Below the pieces are notes generated by a model, which was not told the DNA's origin, searched no databases, and worked only from the letters and a program-made list of their open reading frames with translations. A stretch of DNA of 64,000 nt, taken from Klebsiella pneumoniae (GTDB lineage Bacteria; Myxococcota_A; UBA9042). Below, one piece after another: positions 34,208 to 42,514 of this stretch (the stretch's first letter is position 1; each line of letters opens with the position of its first letter). The stretch is from the NCBI GenBank assembly GCA_945889325.1, contig CAMDBH010000011.1:1-64000 (forward strand), in the 5' to 3' direction. Position numbers and translations under genes: made by a program.

Positions 34208-35239
34208 CTACTTCGCGAACAAATCCACCGCTCTGGCTACAGTGACCATCAAAAACCACGGGGCGGTCACGCTGTCCATCTCGCTCCAGGTTTTCAAAGG
34301 GATTTTGGCCCGGACTTGCAGCGCCCACATCGGCGCGGGCAACCAAGTGGCGCCGACGCCAAGCAAAACGTCAGTCCTTCCGCTCATTTCGGCAATATCA
34401 CTGCCCCAAGCTGATACATTTTCATGGTAAAATTCTGGCTGAACCAAAAAGCGAAACTGTTCCAAACCGGCGCTGAAACTCGCACCTAAGCCACCCGCTG
34501 CGCGTGCACCTGCCTGATAGTTATACTTATTAGCGTACAGGGGCATGCGGCCGTAACCATAACCAACCAACTGGACAGCGCCCAAATCCCAACTGCCATC
34601 CATACCTAGCTGCGGATCCAACGTTCCCGTGCCGAAAAACAGGTGCCGATGCGGCATACCGGCGCGGGCCAATTCATCTGGATCCGGTTCGGTGCCGCCA
34701 AAGGGCAACGTCACGCCGGGGCGAATGTCCAGCCGGATCTTGCGCTCGGGCGTCGGCGCGAGGACGCGCAATTTCAAGGAAATCGGCACGTCGCCGATGC
34801 CCGTCTTCCAACCGTCGATGTGGTGAATGCTGCTGAACTTGGACAGCACTTCATCGTGAAGGCCCCAGTATTCGGTGCTTTGCCAAGCCGTGCGCAGCGG
34901 CAGCGCGACGTCGACACCCACGCGGTCGGTTAGACCCAAGGATAGATCCAACGACGCGTCAGCAAAAAAGCTTTGGGTATGATGGCTATGCGCTTGTTGC
35001 GCCGCCGAGATGCCGGGCTCCAATTCGTCGCCTGGCACACCATGGGCCGAACTGAACCTAGTGCCCGTCAGGGTGAAGCTGGCGTAGAGCAGCCCCGGCT
35101 GCAAGTCACTGAATTGAGACGATCCTCCACCCGGGAGGTTCGGATTGCTTCAAGCAATTCAGCCGCCGGCGTAGGCCGACTTGGCGAGCATCACGTTGGA
35201 CAGCATCAGGAAAAGCGCCATCAGTTTGCGAATTTGCAT
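34208..35239 (-). CDS. Outer-membrane barrel protein with two in-frame UGA codons (candidate double selenoprotein)
   Basis: Read through two TGA codons this is one 343-codon frame. ATG with GAGGATC upstream opens a clear signal peptide (MQIRKLMALFLMLSNVMLAK, then SAYA, cut before GG). Next come GG-UGA-Ile-Ala-UGA-SNPNLPGGG at codons 25-37, with UGA at plus 35159-35161 and 35150-35152. From codon 31 to the stop there is no interruption. The body is a beta-barrel with HSHHTQ and strands such as SLDLSLGLTDRVGVDVALP. UGA fills both positions of an expected CxxC. A SECIS-like hairpin follows. Alternatives: two nonsense mutations in a decaying gene, or a leaderless protein from TTG 35104, which would not reach the outer membrane. 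The sel machinery is not in this window. Confidence 0.7.
35120..35142 (-). promoter_or_regulatory. SECIS-like hairpin after the UGA pair
   Basis: On the minus-strand mRNA, CGA-A-CCUCC (plus 35142-35134) pairs with GGAGG-A-UCG (plus 35128-35120): eight base pairs with one A-A mismatch, apical loop CGGGU. The loop begins 16 bases after the second UGA and 25 after the first, inside the 16-37 base range used for bacterial SECIS elements, and has G at the second loop position. It also encodes LPGGG, so it lies within the reading frame as bacterial SECIS elements do. Confidence 0.6.
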
Positions 35240-35255: not shown

Positions 35256-35376
35256 GGAGTTGTGCAAAAATAACTCGATCGAGTTATTTGAACAAAATGA
35301 GCCGCGATCTGCATCGGTGAGCTTGGCGACCCAGCAACACTGCACGGGCCTGTGCAAGATATTCTTGCACAGGCCC
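35256..35376. mobile_element. MITE copy A
   Basis: A 121-bp non-coding element. Imperfect terminal inverted repeats read GGAGTTGTGCAAAAAT at the left and, inward from the right, GGGCCTGTGCAAGAAT. It is flanked by TTA on both sides (35253-35255 and 35377-35379), a 3-bp target duplication. It shares a 27-base identical core (35311-35337) and both ends with copy B at 47912..48034. It also carries a 22-bp perfect palindrome (35268-35289) and a terminal hairpin (35345-35376). It sits 16 bases upstream of the UGA-containing barrel gene, and its right-hand TTA is the stop codon of the thioredoxin-HMA gene. Confidence 0.8.
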
Positions 35377-36054
35377 TTAGTTCTTGCGCGCCAAATCGAT
35401 CGCAGCGTGCAATTGGTCCAAGTGCAGCCCCGCGATAGCCGCGATACGTTTGCCATTTTTGGCGTACACCAGCACAAACGGCAGGCCGGAAATATTTTGG
35501 AGGTGCTGCTTGGCCACCGGCGTATCCCAATCGCCGATGTCCACTTTGCGCAGCGCCAGATCGGGAGTTTTAGGCAGCAATTCAGCCAAATCTGCATCAA
35601 CGTCGCGGCACGGACCGCACCACGCAGCGCCGAAATCGACAACAGTGACCTTGCCTGCGACTGCGGCTGCATCGACATCTACGACGTTTCCGTGTGAAAT
35701 CCATTGTATATCCGCGTTCTCAGCGAATTTTTGTGCGGCCAAGTAGTGGCCATGCCCGCCACCGATGCTGGCTTTGACATTTTGACCCAGCAAAATCTTG
35801 ACCATATCACCCGGCAAGATGCGCGCGGCGTCAAAATGCACTTTGACTTCGGCGGCCCCTTTGTCAAATTCCGCTGTAGCAACACCGGGTTGTGCGGACA
35901 ACGCTGCGACGGATCGCATCCCGCACTCGGCGCAGGTAATATCGGTCAGCGACAGCACAACGTCATTGGGTTGTTGCAATTGCGCACCACTGCACGCGAA
36001 CAACAGCGTCGTCGCGAAAAGAAGGAGCATTCGGGGTGCGTCAAATTGTCGCAT
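35377..36054 (-). CDS. Lipoprotein with heavy-metal-associated and thioredoxin domains
   Basis: Lipobox TLLFAC (Cys21). Residues about 32-92 are an HMA (heavy-metal-associated) domain with metal-binding CAEC at 41-44 in the usual place (TDITCAECGMRSV). Residues about 115-225 are a thioredoxin fold with active site AAWCGPCRDVD (Cys146, Cys149) and cis-Pro in SGLPFVLVY. It should act in the periplasm as a membrane-tethered thiol reductant or metal handler. It lies between the subtilase and the UGA-containing barrel gene, all on the minus strand. Its stop codon is the TTA duplicated by MITE copy A. A shorter start at 36030 would also give a lipoprotein. Confidence 0.85.
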   Translation of the reverse strand: MRQFDAPRMLLLFATTLLFACSGAQLQQPNDVVLSLTDITCAECGMRSVAALSAQPGVATAEFDKGAAEVKVHFDAARILPGDMVKILLGQNVKASIGGGHGHYLAAQKFAENADIQWISHGNVVDVDAAAVAGKVTVVDFGAAWCGPCRDVDADLAELLPKTPDLALRKVDIGDWDTPVAKQHLQNISGLPFVLVYAKNGKRIAAIAGLHLDQLHAAIDLARKN

Positions 36055-36075: not shown

Positions 36076-39000
36076 CTACCGCGGCGCAAGTGCGGCAACG
36101 CCTCGGCGCGCGATAGGGCAAATGACAATACCTGACACCCGGTAACCCAGCAAAATAACAACGGTCAGGAGTATTTGCCACCAGACCGCGCCCGTTTGGC
36201 GTCCGGCGCTGCACCCGCCAGGTGCCGTCACTGTCGGCGCAGGCGCGGCGTCCGTCGACGAGGCATCCGCACACGCCGCCTTGCCCGCGCAGCCGCACAG
36301 GGCCGTGCAAACGGCGCAGGCGACATTTCCGGCACAATCCGAATCTTTACAGTCGATTGCTCCATCCTTGTCGTCATCGACGCCGTTGATGCAATCGGTC
36401 TCGGGTGAGCACTGGCAGGACAGCGTGAGCGCAACAGTGCCAGCCGCGGCGGTTTGTGAATCGATAACGACGCGCAACGGCTCGCCTTTTTTCATCGAAA
36501 CTGCCACATCGCTCAAGTCGTCGCCGGCATTGGATTTTTGCTTGCAACTGCTGTCGATGCAGGGTTTGTTGCCGTCCAAAATCAACAAAATCGCATCCAG
36601 TTTCGCGGTGGCACCCTCCAAATTGACGTGAGCTGTGCCTGTACACGGCGGAGAAAAATCAAATGCGCGCTCCGGACCCAAAGTTGTGCGCTGTTTTCCG
36701 CCACAAATCCAAGCGTCCATGACGTCGGTGGCCAATGGAGAAACTTTTTCCACTTGGGTCGTGAAGTCGCACTGCACCTGCGCGGTCGCGAGGCAAAATT
36801 GGCCGATACACGCGCCATTATTGCACTTTTGCCCAAAGCCGCAGCTCCCGCACACGCCGCCGCAGCCGTCGTCGCCGCACGCGCGCCCTTCGCACGCGGG
36901 CTTGCACACGCAAACGTTGTTTTTGCACGTGTTGTGGGCACCGCAAAGTTTCCGCGGCGCGAACTGGCCACAACTGTCTGTACCCCATAAGTTATCGCCG
37001 TTGCAGCTCAGAGCAATTTTCGCGGTGTCGTAGTAGCAGCCGCCGTTCTTGTTGTCGCAGATTGTGCCGTCGGGACAGTCGGTTGCGGTGGCGCACAACG
37101 GCAAGCAGGTGGATGGCGAGTCGGCTTTGGCCGCGTTGTTACCACTACAGTAAAAACCGTTCAGGCAGTCATTGTTGGAAAGGCAGGCTGCGCATACGGA
37201 TTTTGCCTTGTCCGCGCCGCTGCATTGCCCCAAGACGCAACTGCCGAATGTGCACGCGCTGGTGCAATCCACGGTTGCGCTGCAGCCGTCGGGCAGGGCG
37301 ATGCCGCATTGTCCGGGGTAATCATTGAGGCAAGTTTTCTTGGCACAAGCCAAATTACTTGCGGCCTTGGCGTCGATGATGCCGTAACCGGCTGAAGAAT
37401 CGGCCTTGCCAGCGCCCGATGCCGATTGTTGCAGCCGATCGCGCAGCGCCGACGGTGAAAGTGTGGGATCTGCTTGCAAAAGCAGCGCCGCCGCACCCGC
37501 GGCCATCGGCGTCGCCATGCTCGTGCCCTTCATCACGGCATAGTGGGCGGGACCGCTGCCGTCGAGCTTTTTGCCGTCATCATCAATAATATCATCGTCA
37601 CCAAAACTAACATCGGCGTCGCGCGCTGAAATCACATAGGTACCTGCGGCGGCCAGATCGGGCTTGATCAAGCCATCGATGCGCGGCCCGTGACTGGAAT
37701 ACGGCGCAATTTGGTCCAATTTGGCCTTATCCACCATGCCTTGGCCCTTAAATGACGTCCACTTGACGCGGTCGGTCCACGCTGCAACGGCGATCGCGCT
37801 GTCGGCAATAGCCGGCGTGCCTACCACCGTCGACAAATCGGCGGCATCAAAGCCGACTTCCTTGGGCGGCTCGTCATTGACGTATAGGTGCACGGTTGTG
37901 GCCGCCGTCAAGCTGGTGTTGTGCAATACGATGCTGTAATTCTTGGAGAGTTTTGCCTTCAAGTTGGGCCCGATCACAACCGTTCGGCCTTCGGTAGCTC
38001 TTGCGGTCACAACCGTTCCGGAAACAAAGACAGCTTCACCGGCATCTGCCGCATTTTTTACCTCGACGCTGATATTGCCCTCTTGCGGCAACGCGTCGCG
38101 CCACCACAATTTTACGCGAATCCATTCAGTCTTGGCTTTGGTCGCACTTGGGTTGACCACATTGAGTTGCACCGCCTTGGTTTGCCCCGGCGCCAACGTA
38201 GCCACCGCGTGCTGAAAATCGTTGCCCGCGTTACCCGCCGAAACAAAGGCAGTCGTTCCACTGGCTACCAACGCATCGACGGCCTGCGACAGGGGCCCCG
38301 CACCGTCGACATCGTCACCGACGCTGCCATAACTCATAGAAAAAATTTGGCAACCGACTTCGTGTGCCCGCTGCATGGCTTTGATTTCGTTTTTGGGCGA
38401 CGCCGAAGCGTCGACGTCATCGCCGATTTTGTAAAAATACAGCGACGCTTGGGGCGCCGTGCCGCGGTAAAGCCCTGCCGATGCAGCGCCACTGCCGACC
38501 GCGCTGCCCGTGACATGCGTGCCGTGCGGTGACACCTTGTTGTGCACATCGGTTGGCCATTCGGCGGCGGTCTTGCCCTTGGTGACGTCAAAGGCCTCGA
38601 TGGGTTTAGGAATATCTGGATGTTTCGTGTCCAAGCCGGAGTCGGCGATGCAGATCTTCACCCCCGCCCCCGTCGCCAGACCGACGCTGGGTAGCGCGAC
38701 TTGACCGGCGTGAATCAGCGCGCGACCCAAGTCATTTTGCGGGCGCGACCGGTAGTGCAAAGCACCAATCCGCAAGGTATTTGTATCGCGCGCAACCACG
38801 ATCGCAGCGGCTGCTGACAGCCCAGCTACGTAGAAACCGTGCAAATGACCATGTGTCGGCACTGCATCGACAAACGCGCCGAGGTCGCCAGCTAGGCCAG
38901 CCTGGGCAAAAACTGCGATTTGCGCCGCACTCCAGCGTTTTTCCACATAGATCGCGCAATCCAGCGCTGCATTGCCCGCCAATTGCAGTTCTAACGCCAA

Positions 39001-39141
39001 ATCGGCGTCGATCTTGGCGCTAAGTTGTCCCGCAAGTGCAGCTTGTTGGGCGCCAAACGCCGCGGCGTCTGCACGCACAGTCGCGGGTTGGGGCTGGCAC
39101 GCTGCGCAGGCGAAGAAAGCGAGGAATGCAAGTGTCTTCAA
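36076..39141 (-). CDS. Subtilisin-like (S8) lipoprotein protease with MYXO-CTERM-like tail
   Basis: Serine protease with triad Asp (ICIADSGLD, about 167), His (SPHGTHVTG, about 206) and Ser (GTSMATPMAAGAA, about 541). The insert between His and Ser, about 335 residues, is beta-rich and longer than in secreted subtilisins. After the protease domain come Cys-rich EGF-like pieces (ACGDDGCGGVCGSCGFGQKC) and NGVDDDKDGAIDC. The end, GGCSAGRQTGAVWW then ILLTVVILLGYR, resembles a MYXO-CTERM sorting tail. The leader KTLAFLAFFACAAC suggests N-terminal lipidation too. I use TTG 39141 as start because it begins that leader; the ORF opens at 39207. It follows the giant Cys-rich lipoprotein by 37 bp. Confidence 0.85.
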   Translation of the reverse strand: MKTLAFLAFFACAACQPQPATVRADAAAFGAQQAALAGQLSAKIDADLALELQLAGNAALDCAIYVEKRWSAAQIAVFAQAGLAGDLGAFVDAVPTHGHLHGFYVAGLSAAAAIVVARDTNTLRIGALHYRSRPQNDLGRALIHAGQVALPSVGLATGAGVKICIADSGLDTKHPDIPKPIEAFDVTKGKTAAEWPTDVHNKVSPHGTHVTGSAVGSGAASAGLYRGTAPQASLYFYKIGDDVDASASPKNEIKAMQRAHEVGCQIFSMSYGSVGDDVDGAGPLSQAVDALVASGTTAFVSAGNAGNDFQHAVATLAPGQTKAVQLNVVNPSATKAKTEWIRVKLWWRDALPQEGNISVEVKNAADAGEAVFVSGTVVTARATEGRTVVIGPNLKAKLSKNYSIVLHNTSLTAATTVHLYVNDEPPKEVGFDAADLSTVVGTPAIADSAIAVAAWTDRVKWTSFKGQGMVDKAKLDQIAPYSSHGPRIDGLIKPDLAAAGTYVISARDADVSFGDDDIIDDDGKKLDGSGPAHYAVMKGTSMATPMAAGAAALLLQADPTLSPSALRDRLQQSASGAGKADSSAGYGIIDAKAASNLACAKKTCLNDYPGQCGIALPDGCSATVDCTSACTFGSCVLGQCSGADKAKSVCAACLSNNDCLNGFYCSGNNAAKADSPSTCLPLCATATDCPDGTICDNKNGGCYYDTAKIALSCNGDNLWGTDSCGQFAPRKLCGAHNTCKNNVCVCKPACEGRACGDDGCGGVCGSCGFGQKCNNGACIGQFCLATAQVQCDFTTQVEKVSPLATDVMDAWICGGKQRTTLGPERAFDFSPPCTGTAHVNLEGATAKLDAILLILDGNKPCIDSSCKQKSNAGDDLSDVAVSMKKGEPLRVVIDSQTAAAGTVALTLSCQCSPETDCINGVDDDKDGAIDCKDSDCAGNVACAVCTALCGCAGKAACADASSTDAAPAPTVTAPGGCSAGRQTGAVWWQILLTVVILLGYRVSGIVICPIARRGVAALAPR

Positions 39142-39178
39142 TGGTCTGACCGTGCCCAGTTGGCAGCTTCTCGCATTA

Positions 39179-42100
39179 TTAAGGGGCAATGCACACAATT
39201 CCCGCAAATTTGGCCGTCGAATCGAGGGACCCTAGGCCGGACTGCTCCTGATCTGCCACATGCTTGTACGCAAAGGTCTTTGCCGAGTCGGCAAAGCGAA
39301 AAAAGCTGCGCACCGTGCCATTCTGGATCGGCCACATATCGCCGAGCCAGCCGCACTGAGAAGAATAGACGGCCTGGTTGCCGCCCAACACCGGCTTGAA
39401 CAAGGCGTCGCCTTCGGCTGTGGTCGCCCAGTGGCTGCCTTTGGGGCAATTGTAATTCTTGGCTTTGTCCCAAATATTGGACTTGCCAACCGCAAAATGC
39501 ACGGTCGGAAATGAGCCTGCCTGCCGATAGCCTTTGCAATTGTCGGTCGTATCCATCCAAGATGTATCGACATTGCAGCCCAACGTGTCCCAACTTTTGC
39601 AGTCCGCACCGCATTTGAGCGTGCCATCGCTGCCCACGCCCAAAACACTTGCGCAAATGTTGCCGCCCAGTTGCAAGCCGTCGCATTTTTCGACCGCACC
39701 CTGCACGATGCCGTCGCCGCAAACCGTCGGTTTGCACACGCTAGCGACGCAAACACTGTCGGGATTGCACAGGGTCCCATCCGCAATTGTTACGTGTTTG
39801 CAGCCTGTTGCTTTATCGCAGCTGTCGGTGGTGCAAGTGTTGAGGTCGTCGCAGTTGGCGGGCACGCCTGCGCAGCTTCCGCCTTTGCAAACGTCGCCTG
39901 TGGTGCAAGCATCGCCGTCATTACAGCCAATTGTGTTGTACACGTGCAAGCAGCCCAACTTGGCGTCGCAAGTGTCGGTCGAACACACGTTGTTGTCGTC
40001 GCAGGCGTTGAGAGGTCCAACGGTGCACTTGCCGACAATACATTTGTCTTTTTCAGTACATATGCTGCCGTCGGCGTCGCAGGGCGACGCTTCCATCGGT
40101 TTGATGTCGTACAGGCAAACCCCGCTGTTGGTGTCGCAGTTATCGAATGTGCAAGGGTTTTTGTCATCGCACACTTTGGGTTTTCCGCTCAGGCAAGTGC
40201 CGTTTTTGCAGGAATCGCCGACGGTACACGGTGCGCCATCGTCGCAAACGTCCACATTGAAAGAGTTGCTGCATCCGGTCTTTGGATCGCAGGCATCATC
40301 GGTGCAAGCGTTGGCATCGTCGCAGTTTTTCTGTTTGCCGGCGGTGCATTTGCCCAAAATACAGGAATCGCTGATGGTGCAGTTGCTGTTGTCCGCATCG
40401 CACGGCGAGCCGTTGAGCGCCACGGCCGAATAGATACAAGTGCCGGCGATGGTGTTGGGATCACAACTATCTGAAGTGCAACCGTTGTTGTCGTCGCAGA
40501 CCTTGTCCTTGCCGGTCTTGCAGGCGCCGCTGACACAAATGTCGTTTTGCGTACAAGGATTATCGTCTGAATTACATAGACTTATGTTATTGACCTTGGT
40601 GCAGCCGGTCAAGGCGTCGCAGCCGTCGTCGGTGCAAGCATTGCCGTCGTCGCAGAGTTTAGCCTTGCCAGCCGTACACTTACCAACGATACATTTGTCG
40701 CTGACCGTGCAAACGCTGCTGTCCGCATCGCAGGCTGCACCTTCGTTGATGCTGCCGTCAAATTTGCACAAGCCGCCGACCGGATCGCAACTGTCCTGGG
40801 TACAGCTGCTGTTATCATTGCAAATTTTGTTGGGGCCAGACACGCAAACCGTGTTGCTGCAGGCATCGGCCAAGGTGCAGGCGTCGTTGTCGCTGCATGG
40901 CCCCGTCGTGGCCGTGTTGCTGCAGGCCGTGAGCGGATCGCACTTGTCGTCGGTGCACTGATTGCCGTCGTCGCAATTGATGGCAATGCCAGCACAAACC
41001 CCAGCTTTGCACACATCGGCGGCTGTGCATTTGGTGCCATCGTCGCAGGGCGCGGTTGTCGGCGCGTTCACGCAACCGCTTGTCGGGTCGCACGAATCCA
41101 AGGTGCAGCCGTTGCCGTCGTCGCAATTCTTGGCGTCGCCAGCGCATACGCCCGCGGCGCACTTGTCGGCCACGCTGCAAATCAAACCGTCGTCGCAAAT
41201 GACGCCATCTTGTTTGTTGGTGAACACACAATTTCCGCCGGAAAGGTCGCAACTGCCTATAATGCAAGGCTTGTTCGCGTCGCAGTTCTTGTCCGCGCCC
41301 TTCTGACACAAGCTGTTGAAACAAGAATCTCCAACAGTACAGGCATTTCCATCGCTGCAGGCCACGCCGTCGTCGGCCGTTTGGGTGCAACCGCTCGCGG
41401 TGTCGCAACTGTCTTTTGTGCACGGATTGCCGTCGCTGCAGTCCTTCGCCGGTCCCGGTTTGCAACCGCCATCGAGGCAAAAATCGTTTTGCGTGCACAC
41501 GTTTACGTCCGCATCGCAAGGGCCTCCCAGCGCAGCATGTGCGCAGCCAAAAGCGCTACCACCGGCATCTGGTTTGCACAAGTCCTGCGTGCAAGTGTTC
41601 TTGTCATTGCAAGTTGCGTCGTCCGTGACGCCATTGCAGTCGTTGTCGACGCCGTCGCAGACCTCGGTGGCCGGATCGGGCGCGGCGCACGCGGTGAGGC
41701 CGTCGCTGGCGCATTGGCGCGTGCCCGCGCAATTGCCGATGACTTTTCCGTCCTTGTCCTTGGCTTGCACCATGCATTTGGTCTGCAGCCCTGCGCTTTT
41801 AGCCGCCACAGAACAAGTGCACACGCCGGGATGGCCGTTGCTCGGGTCGGGCACGCACTGTTTTACTTTCTGGCCCTCCACCGCAGTCACTTCCGAACAC
41901 GAAAATCCCTTGCCGCAATCGGCGGTGTCCTGACACGGCGACCCGCAGAAGGCGCCTTCATCGCCGGCTTGGCCAAACGCGATGCAAGCCGCGGCGGTCG
42001 TGCCTGTCGTCACACAATCTTTTGAAATCGTACAGGGATCGCAACGGCGACCAAATTTGGCCACGCAAATGGTGATCAAATCGCCACCCGACCCGCTCAC

Positions 42101-42514
42101 CGTGCTGCAAGCAAAGCCGTCGGGACAGTTATCGATGCAGTTGCGCGCACATTGCTTGCCTTCGGGGGTGTCGATGCAAAATGCGTTGTCGCAGTCGCTA
42201 TTGCCCTTGCAGGGACAACCTGGACCGCCAGCGCTGACAAGGCATTGATTTCCTGCGTCAACACCCGGACCGAGGTCCGCAGCAGTACTGTCTTTGACGG
42301 TGTCATCAACGCCGGCCGTGCTGTCGCCGTCGGTTTGAGCCGCATCGCCAGCGGGTTGGGGCGCCGGATCCGAACCACAGGCTCCCAGCGCCGCGACTGC
42401 CAAGGCTACTAGCAAATGATCAAGCCCACACAGGCGAGCGCGTGTAGGCGCAATAGCGCAAAATACTTGCGGAAGTTCAAACAGTGCCAATGTTACCCCG
42501 CGCGATTTCCGCAA
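39179..42514 (-). CDS. Giant cysteine-rich repeat lipoprotein (paralogue)
   Basis: Closely parallels the lipoprotein at 25917..28877: lipobox AALGAC, an Asp/Ala linker, a Cys-rich N module ending in DGVDNDCNGVTDD, then more than fifteen repeats of CDDGN-CTxDxCD-GC type, CGDGIVQGAVEKCDG and a distinct C-terminal domain (about 170 residues) with TDNCKGYRQAGSFPTVHFAV. 1,111 codons from the first TTG. The start is uncertain: no ATG or GTG lies between the upstream stop and the lipobox. TTG 42490 is an alternative, with GGGG a few bases before it. It is probably co-transcribed with the subtilase downstream. Function unknown. Confidence 0.8.
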   Translation of the reverse strand: MRKSRGVTLALFELPQVFCAIAPTRARLCGLDHLLVALAVAALGACGSDPAPQPAGDAAQTDGDSTAGVDDTVKDSTAADLGPGVDAGNQCLVSAGGPGCPCKGNSDCDNAFCIDTPEGKQCARNCIDNCPDGFACSTVSGSGGDLITICVAKFGRRCDPCTISKDCVTTGTTAAACIAFGQAGDEGAFCGSPCQDTADCGKGFSCSEVTAVEGQKVKQCVPDPSNGHPGVCTCSVAAKSAGLQTKCMVQAKDKDGKVIGNCAGTRQCASDGLTACAAPDPATEVCDGVDNDCNGVTDDATCNDKNTCTQDLCKPDAGGSAFGCAHAALGGPCDADVNVCTQNDFCLDGGCKPGPAKDCSDGNPCTKDSCDTASGCTQTADDGVACSDGNACTVGDSCFNSLCQKGADKNCDANKPCIIGSCDLSGGNCVFTNKQDGVICDDGLICSVADKCAAGVCAGDAKNCDDGNGCTLDSCDPTSGCVNAPTTAPCDDGTKCTAADVCKAGVCAGIAINCDDGNQCTDDKCDPLTACSNTATTGPCSDNDACTLADACSNTVCVSGPNKICNDNSSCTQDSCDPVGGLCKFDGSINEGAACDADSSVCTVSDKCIVGKCTAGKAKLCDDGNACTDDGCDALTGCTKVNNISLCNSDDNPCTQNDICVSGACKTGKDKVCDDNNGCTSDSCDPNTIAGTCIYSAVALNGSPCDADNSNCTISDSCILGKCTAGKQKNCDDANACTDDACDPKTGCSNSFNVDVCDDGAPCTVGDSCKNGTCLSGKPKVCDDKNPCTFDNCDTNSGVCLYDIKPMEASPCDADGSICTEKDKCIVGKCTVGPLNACDDNNVCSTDTCDAKLGCLHVYNTIGCNDGDACTTGDVCKGGSCAGVPANCDDLNTCTTDSCDKATGCKHVTIADGTLCNPDSVCVASVCKPTVCGDGIVQGAVEKCDGLQLGGNICASVLGVGSDGTLKCGADCKSWDTLGCNVDTSWMDTTDNCKGYRQAGSFPTVHFAVGKSNIWDKAKNYNCPKGSHWATTAEGDALFKPVLGGNQAVYSSQCGWLGDMWPIQNGTVRSFFRFADSAKTFAYKHVADQEQSGLGSLDSTAKFAGIVCIAP

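Follow-up and report, generated by a model that had tools for sequence, protein, structure and literature searches.

The window analysed here, a 64,000-nucleotide stretch of DNA, carries on its minus strand a gene that very likely encodes an outer-membrane barrel selenoprotein with two selenocysteine (Sec) residues and a thioredoxin partner. Insertion of selenium is inferred from the sequence, and there is no protein-level evidence for it. The comparisons described below establish that two UGA codons are conserved at Cys sites, that they are accompanied by a SECIS-like hairpin and associated with the Sec machinery, and that the encoded protein has a predicted barrel and a thioredoxin partner. 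That selenium is incorporated, that the Sec pair becomes N-terminal upon signal cleavage, that it is located in the lumen of the barrel, and that it has a metal or redox role are inferences. The family defined by this gene is large, apparently undescribed, and found mainly in Myxococcota. The features of the locus are listed in Table 1.

Table 1. Features of the barrel gene and its surroundings, in window coordinates
Feature	Position	Strand	Remarks
Gene of the double-Sec outer-membrane barrel protein (Sec inferred)	34208..35239	-	343 codons, two in-frame UGA, TAG end; homologues have UGA or Cys at both sites
Outer-membrane barrel domain (predicted)	34211..35095	-	About 12 strands, FapF/COG4313-like fold (AlphaFold, Foldseek)
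bSECIS-like hairpin	35120..35142	-	Core stem 35138-35134 with 35128-35124, loop CGGGU 35133-35129, three outer pairs
NPNLPGGG segment straight after UxxU-S	35123..35146	-	Same bases encode the hairpin
Second putative Sec-UGA, codon 30	35150..35152	-	Homologues have only TGA, TGC or TGT there
First putative Sec-UGA, codon 27	35159..35161	-	Homologues have only TGA, TGC or TGT there
Signal peptide, residues 1-24	35168..35239	-	AYA/GG signal-peptidase-I-like site, from sequence
14-bp inverted repeat just past the partner's stop	35346..35376	.	Terminator- or attenuator-like
Partner gene, lipoprotein-like HMA (CxxC) and thioredoxin (WCGPC) protein	35377..36054	-	PF00085 above cut-off, PF00403 weak

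The initial annotation had described two in-frame UGA codons, 27 and 30, following a signal peptide in the spacing of a CxxC motif, and a frame that continued for more than 300 codons with barrel-like sequence. All of these claims held: exactly two such codons were found, the length of the frame was confirmed, and the barrel is now supported by a structure model. The frame begins with ATG at 35239, behind a GAGG Shine-Dalgarno sequence (35250-35247), is open from codon 30 onward, and stops with TAG at 34208. According to a loose pattern test, an AxA-like site is located 0-3 residues ahead of the motif in 77/77 homologues; in an alignment of 16 homologues, the N, P and L of the NPNLP segment are invariant. 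A scan of the window for further genes with in-frame UGA yielded only ordinary-looking frame accidents. As a separate observation, the second UGA is the exact loop of a perfect 6-bp hairpin, AUUGCU-UGA-AGCAAU (35144-35158, minus strand), which is apparently not conserved among relatives and may be due to chance.

Homologues were recovered in several searches. Matches were present in 18/138 related genomes, most of them containing exactly two TGA, and in an alignment of 16 matches, comprising 14 UxxU and 2 CxxC forms followed by x-NPxL, both sites are invariant if TGA is read as C. When 379 genomes of the phylum were searched with a profile, 121 had a match, in many cases only a weak or partial one. 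In named genome contigs, a scan located 46 loci, labelled mostly as Myxococcales, Kofleriaceae, Polyangiaceae, Archangium, Myxococcus and Pyxidicoccus, and also one record labelled Acidobacteria and two labelled Poribacteria. Among these contigs, L039, with the label Kofleriaceae, gave a barrel hit identical to that of the locus from G120, which belongs to the phylum of the window; this phylum is therefore Myxococcota. The contig scan needed an alignment of seven closer sequences as the query; the 16-sequence alignment was too diverse, and a genome-contig scan with the single protein gave no match. Removal of near-copies left 80 non-redundant proteins, mostly from Myxococcota, namely 62 UxxU forms, 4 CxxU forms, 11 CxxC forms and 3 sister proteins that have just one Cys. 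The two-position motif is readable in 77 of these; the first-site codon is TGA in 62, TGC in 14 and TGT in 1, and the second-site codon is TGA in 66, TGC in 7 and TGT in 4. Neither TAA nor TAG was found at either site (0/77), nor was any other in-frame stop found across the homologous region. The initial annotation had proposed a search for Cys homologues and for further UGA homologues, and had regarded other stop codons across the frame in relatives as grounds for refutation. Cys was found at exactly codons 27 and 30, UGA homologues were abundant, and no relative contained another stop.

Codon position 3 accounts for 46-71% of the differences in close pairs, which is the expectation for a frame that is translated, and we conclude that in these pairs the frame is under purifying selection. 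In a protein tree made without the motif, six state changes suffice to explain the distribution of forms, with UxxU as the background, at least three origins of CxxC and at least two of CxxU. This tree was a quick one and its root has not been established, so the direction of the changes depends on the root. The CxxU form is present in Archangium violaceum and Myxococcus sp. RHSTA-1-4, both of which have selA and selC.

The bSECIS model specifies an upper stem of 4-16 bp, a loop of 3-9 nt with G in the first two loop positions, and a distance of 16-37 nt between UGA and loop (PMC13188914). The hairpin in the window, whose core is CCUCC-CGGGU-GGAGG (35138-35124), meets this model for both UGAs, the G being in the second loop position. 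It had been described earlier as a hairpin of eight pairs with the loop CGGGU, which held, starting 16 bases after the second UGA and 25 after the first, which held only in part; these distances are those of the loop (16 and 25 nt, respectively), not of the stem, which begins about 8 nt past the second UGA. The local fold energy is unremarkable within the window (z = -1.24), and the best-hairpin energies of Sec forms are not lower than those of synonymous-codon shuffles. That is, folding energy alone is uninformative, and the support for the hairpin comes from stem length by position, loop letters and covariation. Five or more consecutive pairs at the fixed place are found in 94% of UxxU forms versus 18% of CxxC forms, and the core bSECIS rules are met by 65/66 forms with Sec at the second site versus 2/11 CxxC forms. 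The sole exception among the 66, Poribacteria L084, has a stem with the loop GCG just beyond the scanned range.

Compensatory changes were seen in both loop classes. In one, column pair 12-26 is CG in 33 sequences and GC in 4; in the other, pair 15-24 is CG in 13, GC in 8, UG in 2, GU in 1 and UA in 1, and pair 12-27 is CG in 22 and UA in 3. None of 500 shuffles matched the observed covariation score (0/500), a control that is inflated by kinship. The stem Leu codon in UxxU forms is CTC in 48 cases, CTG in 9, CTT in 4 and ATT in 1; on the opposite side of the stem, CTG faces GGC or GGT, and CTC faces GGG or GGA. Nearly every Sec form retains the GG side; CxxC forms, whose Leu codons vary, have mostly lost it. 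Because the hairpin and the double UGA are conserved among homologues, we conclude that they are more than chance.

The genome from which the window derives, an 84%-complete MAG (G000), encodes SelA (E = 1.8e-120), SelB (1.7e-81) and SelD (1.1e-111) (C26, C25 and C56, respectively). The sel genes had been put forward earlier as a test of the selenoprotein reading, and this test was passed for selA, selB and selD; selC, the gene for tRNA-Sec, was not found in this incomplete MAG with a covariance model, a pattern, or blastn with the selC of a relative, although tRNA-Sec was detected, at 65-78 bits, in 19/19 of the other Sec-form genomes tested. Eight of these tRNA-Sec loci were confirmed by ARAGORN, with the anticodon TCA. 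SelA is present in 48/52 UxxU genomes, 4/5 CxxU genomes and 1/12 CxxC genomes (UxxU versus CxxC, Fisher p = 2e-8). Two SelA-negative genomes, G171 (UxxU) and G296 (CxxU), carry tRNA-Sec at 62-63 bits; in the other three SelA-negative UxxU genomes (77-87% complete), tRNA-Sec was not found either. None of the CxxC genomes tested yielded it, the best score there being 50.5 bits; this hit, in the CxxC genome that has SelA (G268), is of ordinary tRNA length. Taken together, these data support the selenoprotein reading of the initial annotation, with selenium insertion and function remaining inferred.

An AlphaFold model of the protein is a barrel with a mean pLDDT of 82.5 and low confidence for residues 15-42, which include the Sec pair. 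The best Foldseek matches in the PDB are FapF (E = 6.6e-11) and the COG4313 channel 4rl8 (E = 1.4e-9), both remote, with 12-15% identity and TM values of about 0.55-0.7. No Pfam model matches the window protein, and PF13557 hits none of the 16 aligned members; L040, a member fused to thioredoxin, does match PF13557 (40.8 bits, cut-off 22), the only fusion member tested that does so. Barrels of this type should have both termini in the periplasm, which would put a C-terminally fused thioredoxin on the side of the Sec tip.

A thioredoxin gene is located directly upstream of 54/80 barrels, with an HMA part in 35 of the 54, and in 14/80 thioredoxin is fused to the barrel or encoded just downstream, so that all arrangements together account for 68/80. 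Partners were identified by profile search, since six-frame ORF clustering was swamped by antisense frames. No adjoining partner was found for 12/80 barrels, including L022, the closest relative of the window's. The thioredoxin site is WCxPC-like in nearly all loci, and in several lineages the N-terminal HMA part is swapped for other Cys-rich segments. In the fusions, the order is barrel, His-rich linker and thioredoxin, and L040, L043 and L115 add a cupredoxin domain that exceeds its Pfam cut-off. Metal genes adjoin some loci only: in L078 the barrel follows a MerR gene and a MerT-HMA (MerTP-like) gene, near a ZntA-type ATPase; a ZntA-type ATPase and CusA are near L069; and L062 has a CusA-type RND gene and an outer-membrane efflux gene. 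Many Myxococcaceae and Polyangiaceae loci are without any, and at the window locus no metal genes, including merR, merT and merP, were seen besides the HMA-thioredoxin partner.

The gap between partner and barrel genes in the window is unlike the short gaps of most relatives. Inspection by eye revealed a perfect palindrome of 22 bases in this gap, AAATAACTCGATCGAGTTATTT (35268-35289), with T after it. The palindrome and the 14-bp inverted repeat could possibly be terminators or an operator.

The mechanism we propose for the barrel selenoprotein is as follows. The single SECIS hairpin is placed such that it would serve both UGAs through SelB and tRNA-Sec; the sequence evidence for this step is strong, and selenium has not been measured. 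The signal peptide would export the protein, and a FapF/COG4313-like barrel of about 12 strands is predicted to form. The two Sec residues of the UxxU motif would then be at the mature N-terminus or a few residues from it, right before the NPNLP segment. In the structure of the COG4313 channel, the lumen is occupied by about 14 residues of the N-terminus, which enter from the periplasmic side (PMC4493636); by analogy, the Sec tip may plug or line the periplasmic mouth of the barrel. A periplasmic thioredoxin, encoded upstream or fused at the C-terminus, would maintain the Sec pair in the reduced state or undergo exchange with it. Lastly, the Sec pair may bind or redox-sense a soft metal (Cu, Hg, Ag or Cd), gating the channel or equipping it for metal handling in the envelope. 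This metal role is proposed because HMA, His-rich or cupredoxin parts occur on the partner or in the fusions; it is inferred, and we consider that it could as well prove wrong as right. A bolder reading, which we regard as no more than possible, is that of a selenolate-gated channel, in which the Sec pair would be in the lumen and its diselenide, thioredoxin-reduced or metal-bound state would open or close the pore, or capture soft metals. If so, selenium chemistry would control traffic across the outer membrane.

Among the alternatives, the one that best survives concerns function only, namely that the Sec pair acts as a thiol/selenol redox relay in the outer membrane, for the reduction of peroxide, disulfide, selenite or arsenate, and that the metal genes are incidental. 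In its favour are the WCxPC-like site of the partner in nearly all loci, the many Myxococcaceae and Polyangiaceae loci that lack metal genes, and the replacement of the HMA part by other Cys-rich segments in several lineages. Against it are the HMA part of 35/54 upstream partners, the His-rich linkers and cupredoxin of the fusions, and the MerTP, ZntA and CusA genes that adjoin some loci. On balance, we lean slightly against a relay of this kind.

The remaining alternatives dispute the selenoprotein itself, and were rejected on the basis of conservation, the sel genes, the hairpin and the Cys homologues. UGA is certainly in frame, and might be reassigned across the whole genome, or decoded by a suppressor as Trp, Gly or Cys; this is very unlikely, as the upstream thioredoxin genes commonly end in UGA, UGA occurs only at Cys-equivalent sites, and both the genes selA, selB and selD and a conserved SECIS-like hairpin were found. 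Equally improbable is a leader-peptide role for the short ORF that ends at the first UGA, with separate translation of the barrel starting at TTG 35104, where a table-11 ORF does begin, for the product from that start would lack the signal peptide and NPNLP, both conserved in homologues whose frame is open with Cys. A pseudogene, i.e., a former CxxC outer-membrane protein with two nonsense mutations, would account for two internal stops under the standard code, but is all but excluded by the conserved double TGA (the same two codons in 62 non-redundant homologues, never TAA or TAG), by the purifying selection in close pairs and by the occurrence of the Cys forms in genomes mostly without SelA; the initial annotation, which had judged two chance nonsense mutations at a CxxC unlikely, was correct on this point.

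The double-Sec barrel selenoprotein resembles several known systems in part. The COG4313/PF13557 (Phenol_MetA_deg) channels, e.g., Pput2725 (4rl8), and FapF (5o65) are alike in their barrel of about 12 strands, predicted here, and Pput2725 also shares a segment ahead of strand 1, which in that protein fills the lumen. Neither these channels nor FapF are known to have a UxxU/CxxC-NPNLP tip, to contain Sec or to be paired with a thioredoxin. The GSU2204-family MtrB/PioB-like barrel (NF041027) and the FCYXU type of TonB-dependent receptor (NF049945) are likewise predicted outer-membrane selenoproteins (PMC13188914), but with one Sec each and different motifs, and their models match 0/16 members of the present family. 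The UxxU metal-binding (seleno)protein NF041115 and the MerT/CopZ-fusion selenoprotein NF045683 share the UxxU motif or the metal context, and HMA parts of partners and neighbours match them below cut-off; judging by model names and matches, they belong to the HMA/MerT type and are not barrels of the outer membrane. Two Sec in a UxxU motif are also found in Prx-like and FmdB-like selenoproteins (PMC2398784, PMC13188914). These are not known to be outer-membrane proteins, and their folds are unrelated.

NCBIfam contains no family that matches the 16 members (E up to 0.01) or the window protein (E up to 5). The family is missing from a 2026 inventory, which tabulates 119 families and subfamilies of prokaryotic selenoproteins (PMC13188914), among which only two outer-membrane barrel families are recognisable, with one Sec each, and no description of it was found in the literature searched, which was limited to open-licence PMC papers. 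If our reading is correct, it adds a double-Sec barrel family, common among Myxococcota, whose Sec residues are located at the mature N-terminus or close to it and in which one SECIS serves two UGAs nine bases apart. Annotation under the standard code would call such genes truncated barrels without a signal peptide. At least three changes from Sec pair to Cys pair, with decay of the hairpin, appear to have taken place, subject to the unestablished root; this direction has been called rare in bacteria (PMC13188914). The family would thus be well suited to the study of Sec gain and loss, and the named isolates (Archangium, Pyxidicoccus and Myxococcus; CxxU form) make it directly testable.

More distant barrels were also noted. 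The window's own genome has a second one (L143:1130-2479, minus strand; G000 contig 15, near 16.25-16.49 kb) with CATU-GNPALPVGD, a CxxU form, and a C-terminal thioredoxin domain. Related CxxU-NPALP proteins in G003, G014 and G021 are fused to thioredoxin, and in their genes the UGA is followed by a hairpin-like CTCCCGGTGGGAG. The divergent relatives L151, L152 and L153 carry UGLU-TNPNLP with a fused thioredoxin, UGLU-GSASLP, and UVGC-SNLSLP (UxxC), respectively. L047, L055, L060 and L150 constitute a sister clade whose members are fused to thioredoxin and have only one Cys (ATC-SNPG), in some genomes alongside UxxU copies. Outside Myxococcota, the Poribacteria loci L083 and L084 have barrel homologues with UGAU-SNPAIP, and the L084 genome encodes SelA. 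A protein that adjoins the MerR/MerTP genes of L078 (2687-3382, minus strand) has a thioredoxin-like part and matches the model of the DF family (seleno)protein NF049942 at 104.3 bits, relative to a cut-off of 70. Lastly, the region upstream of the gene pair in the window (36076-42514, minus strand) encodes two apparently secreted proteins, a large subtilisin-like protease and a repeat protein that is very rich in Cys.
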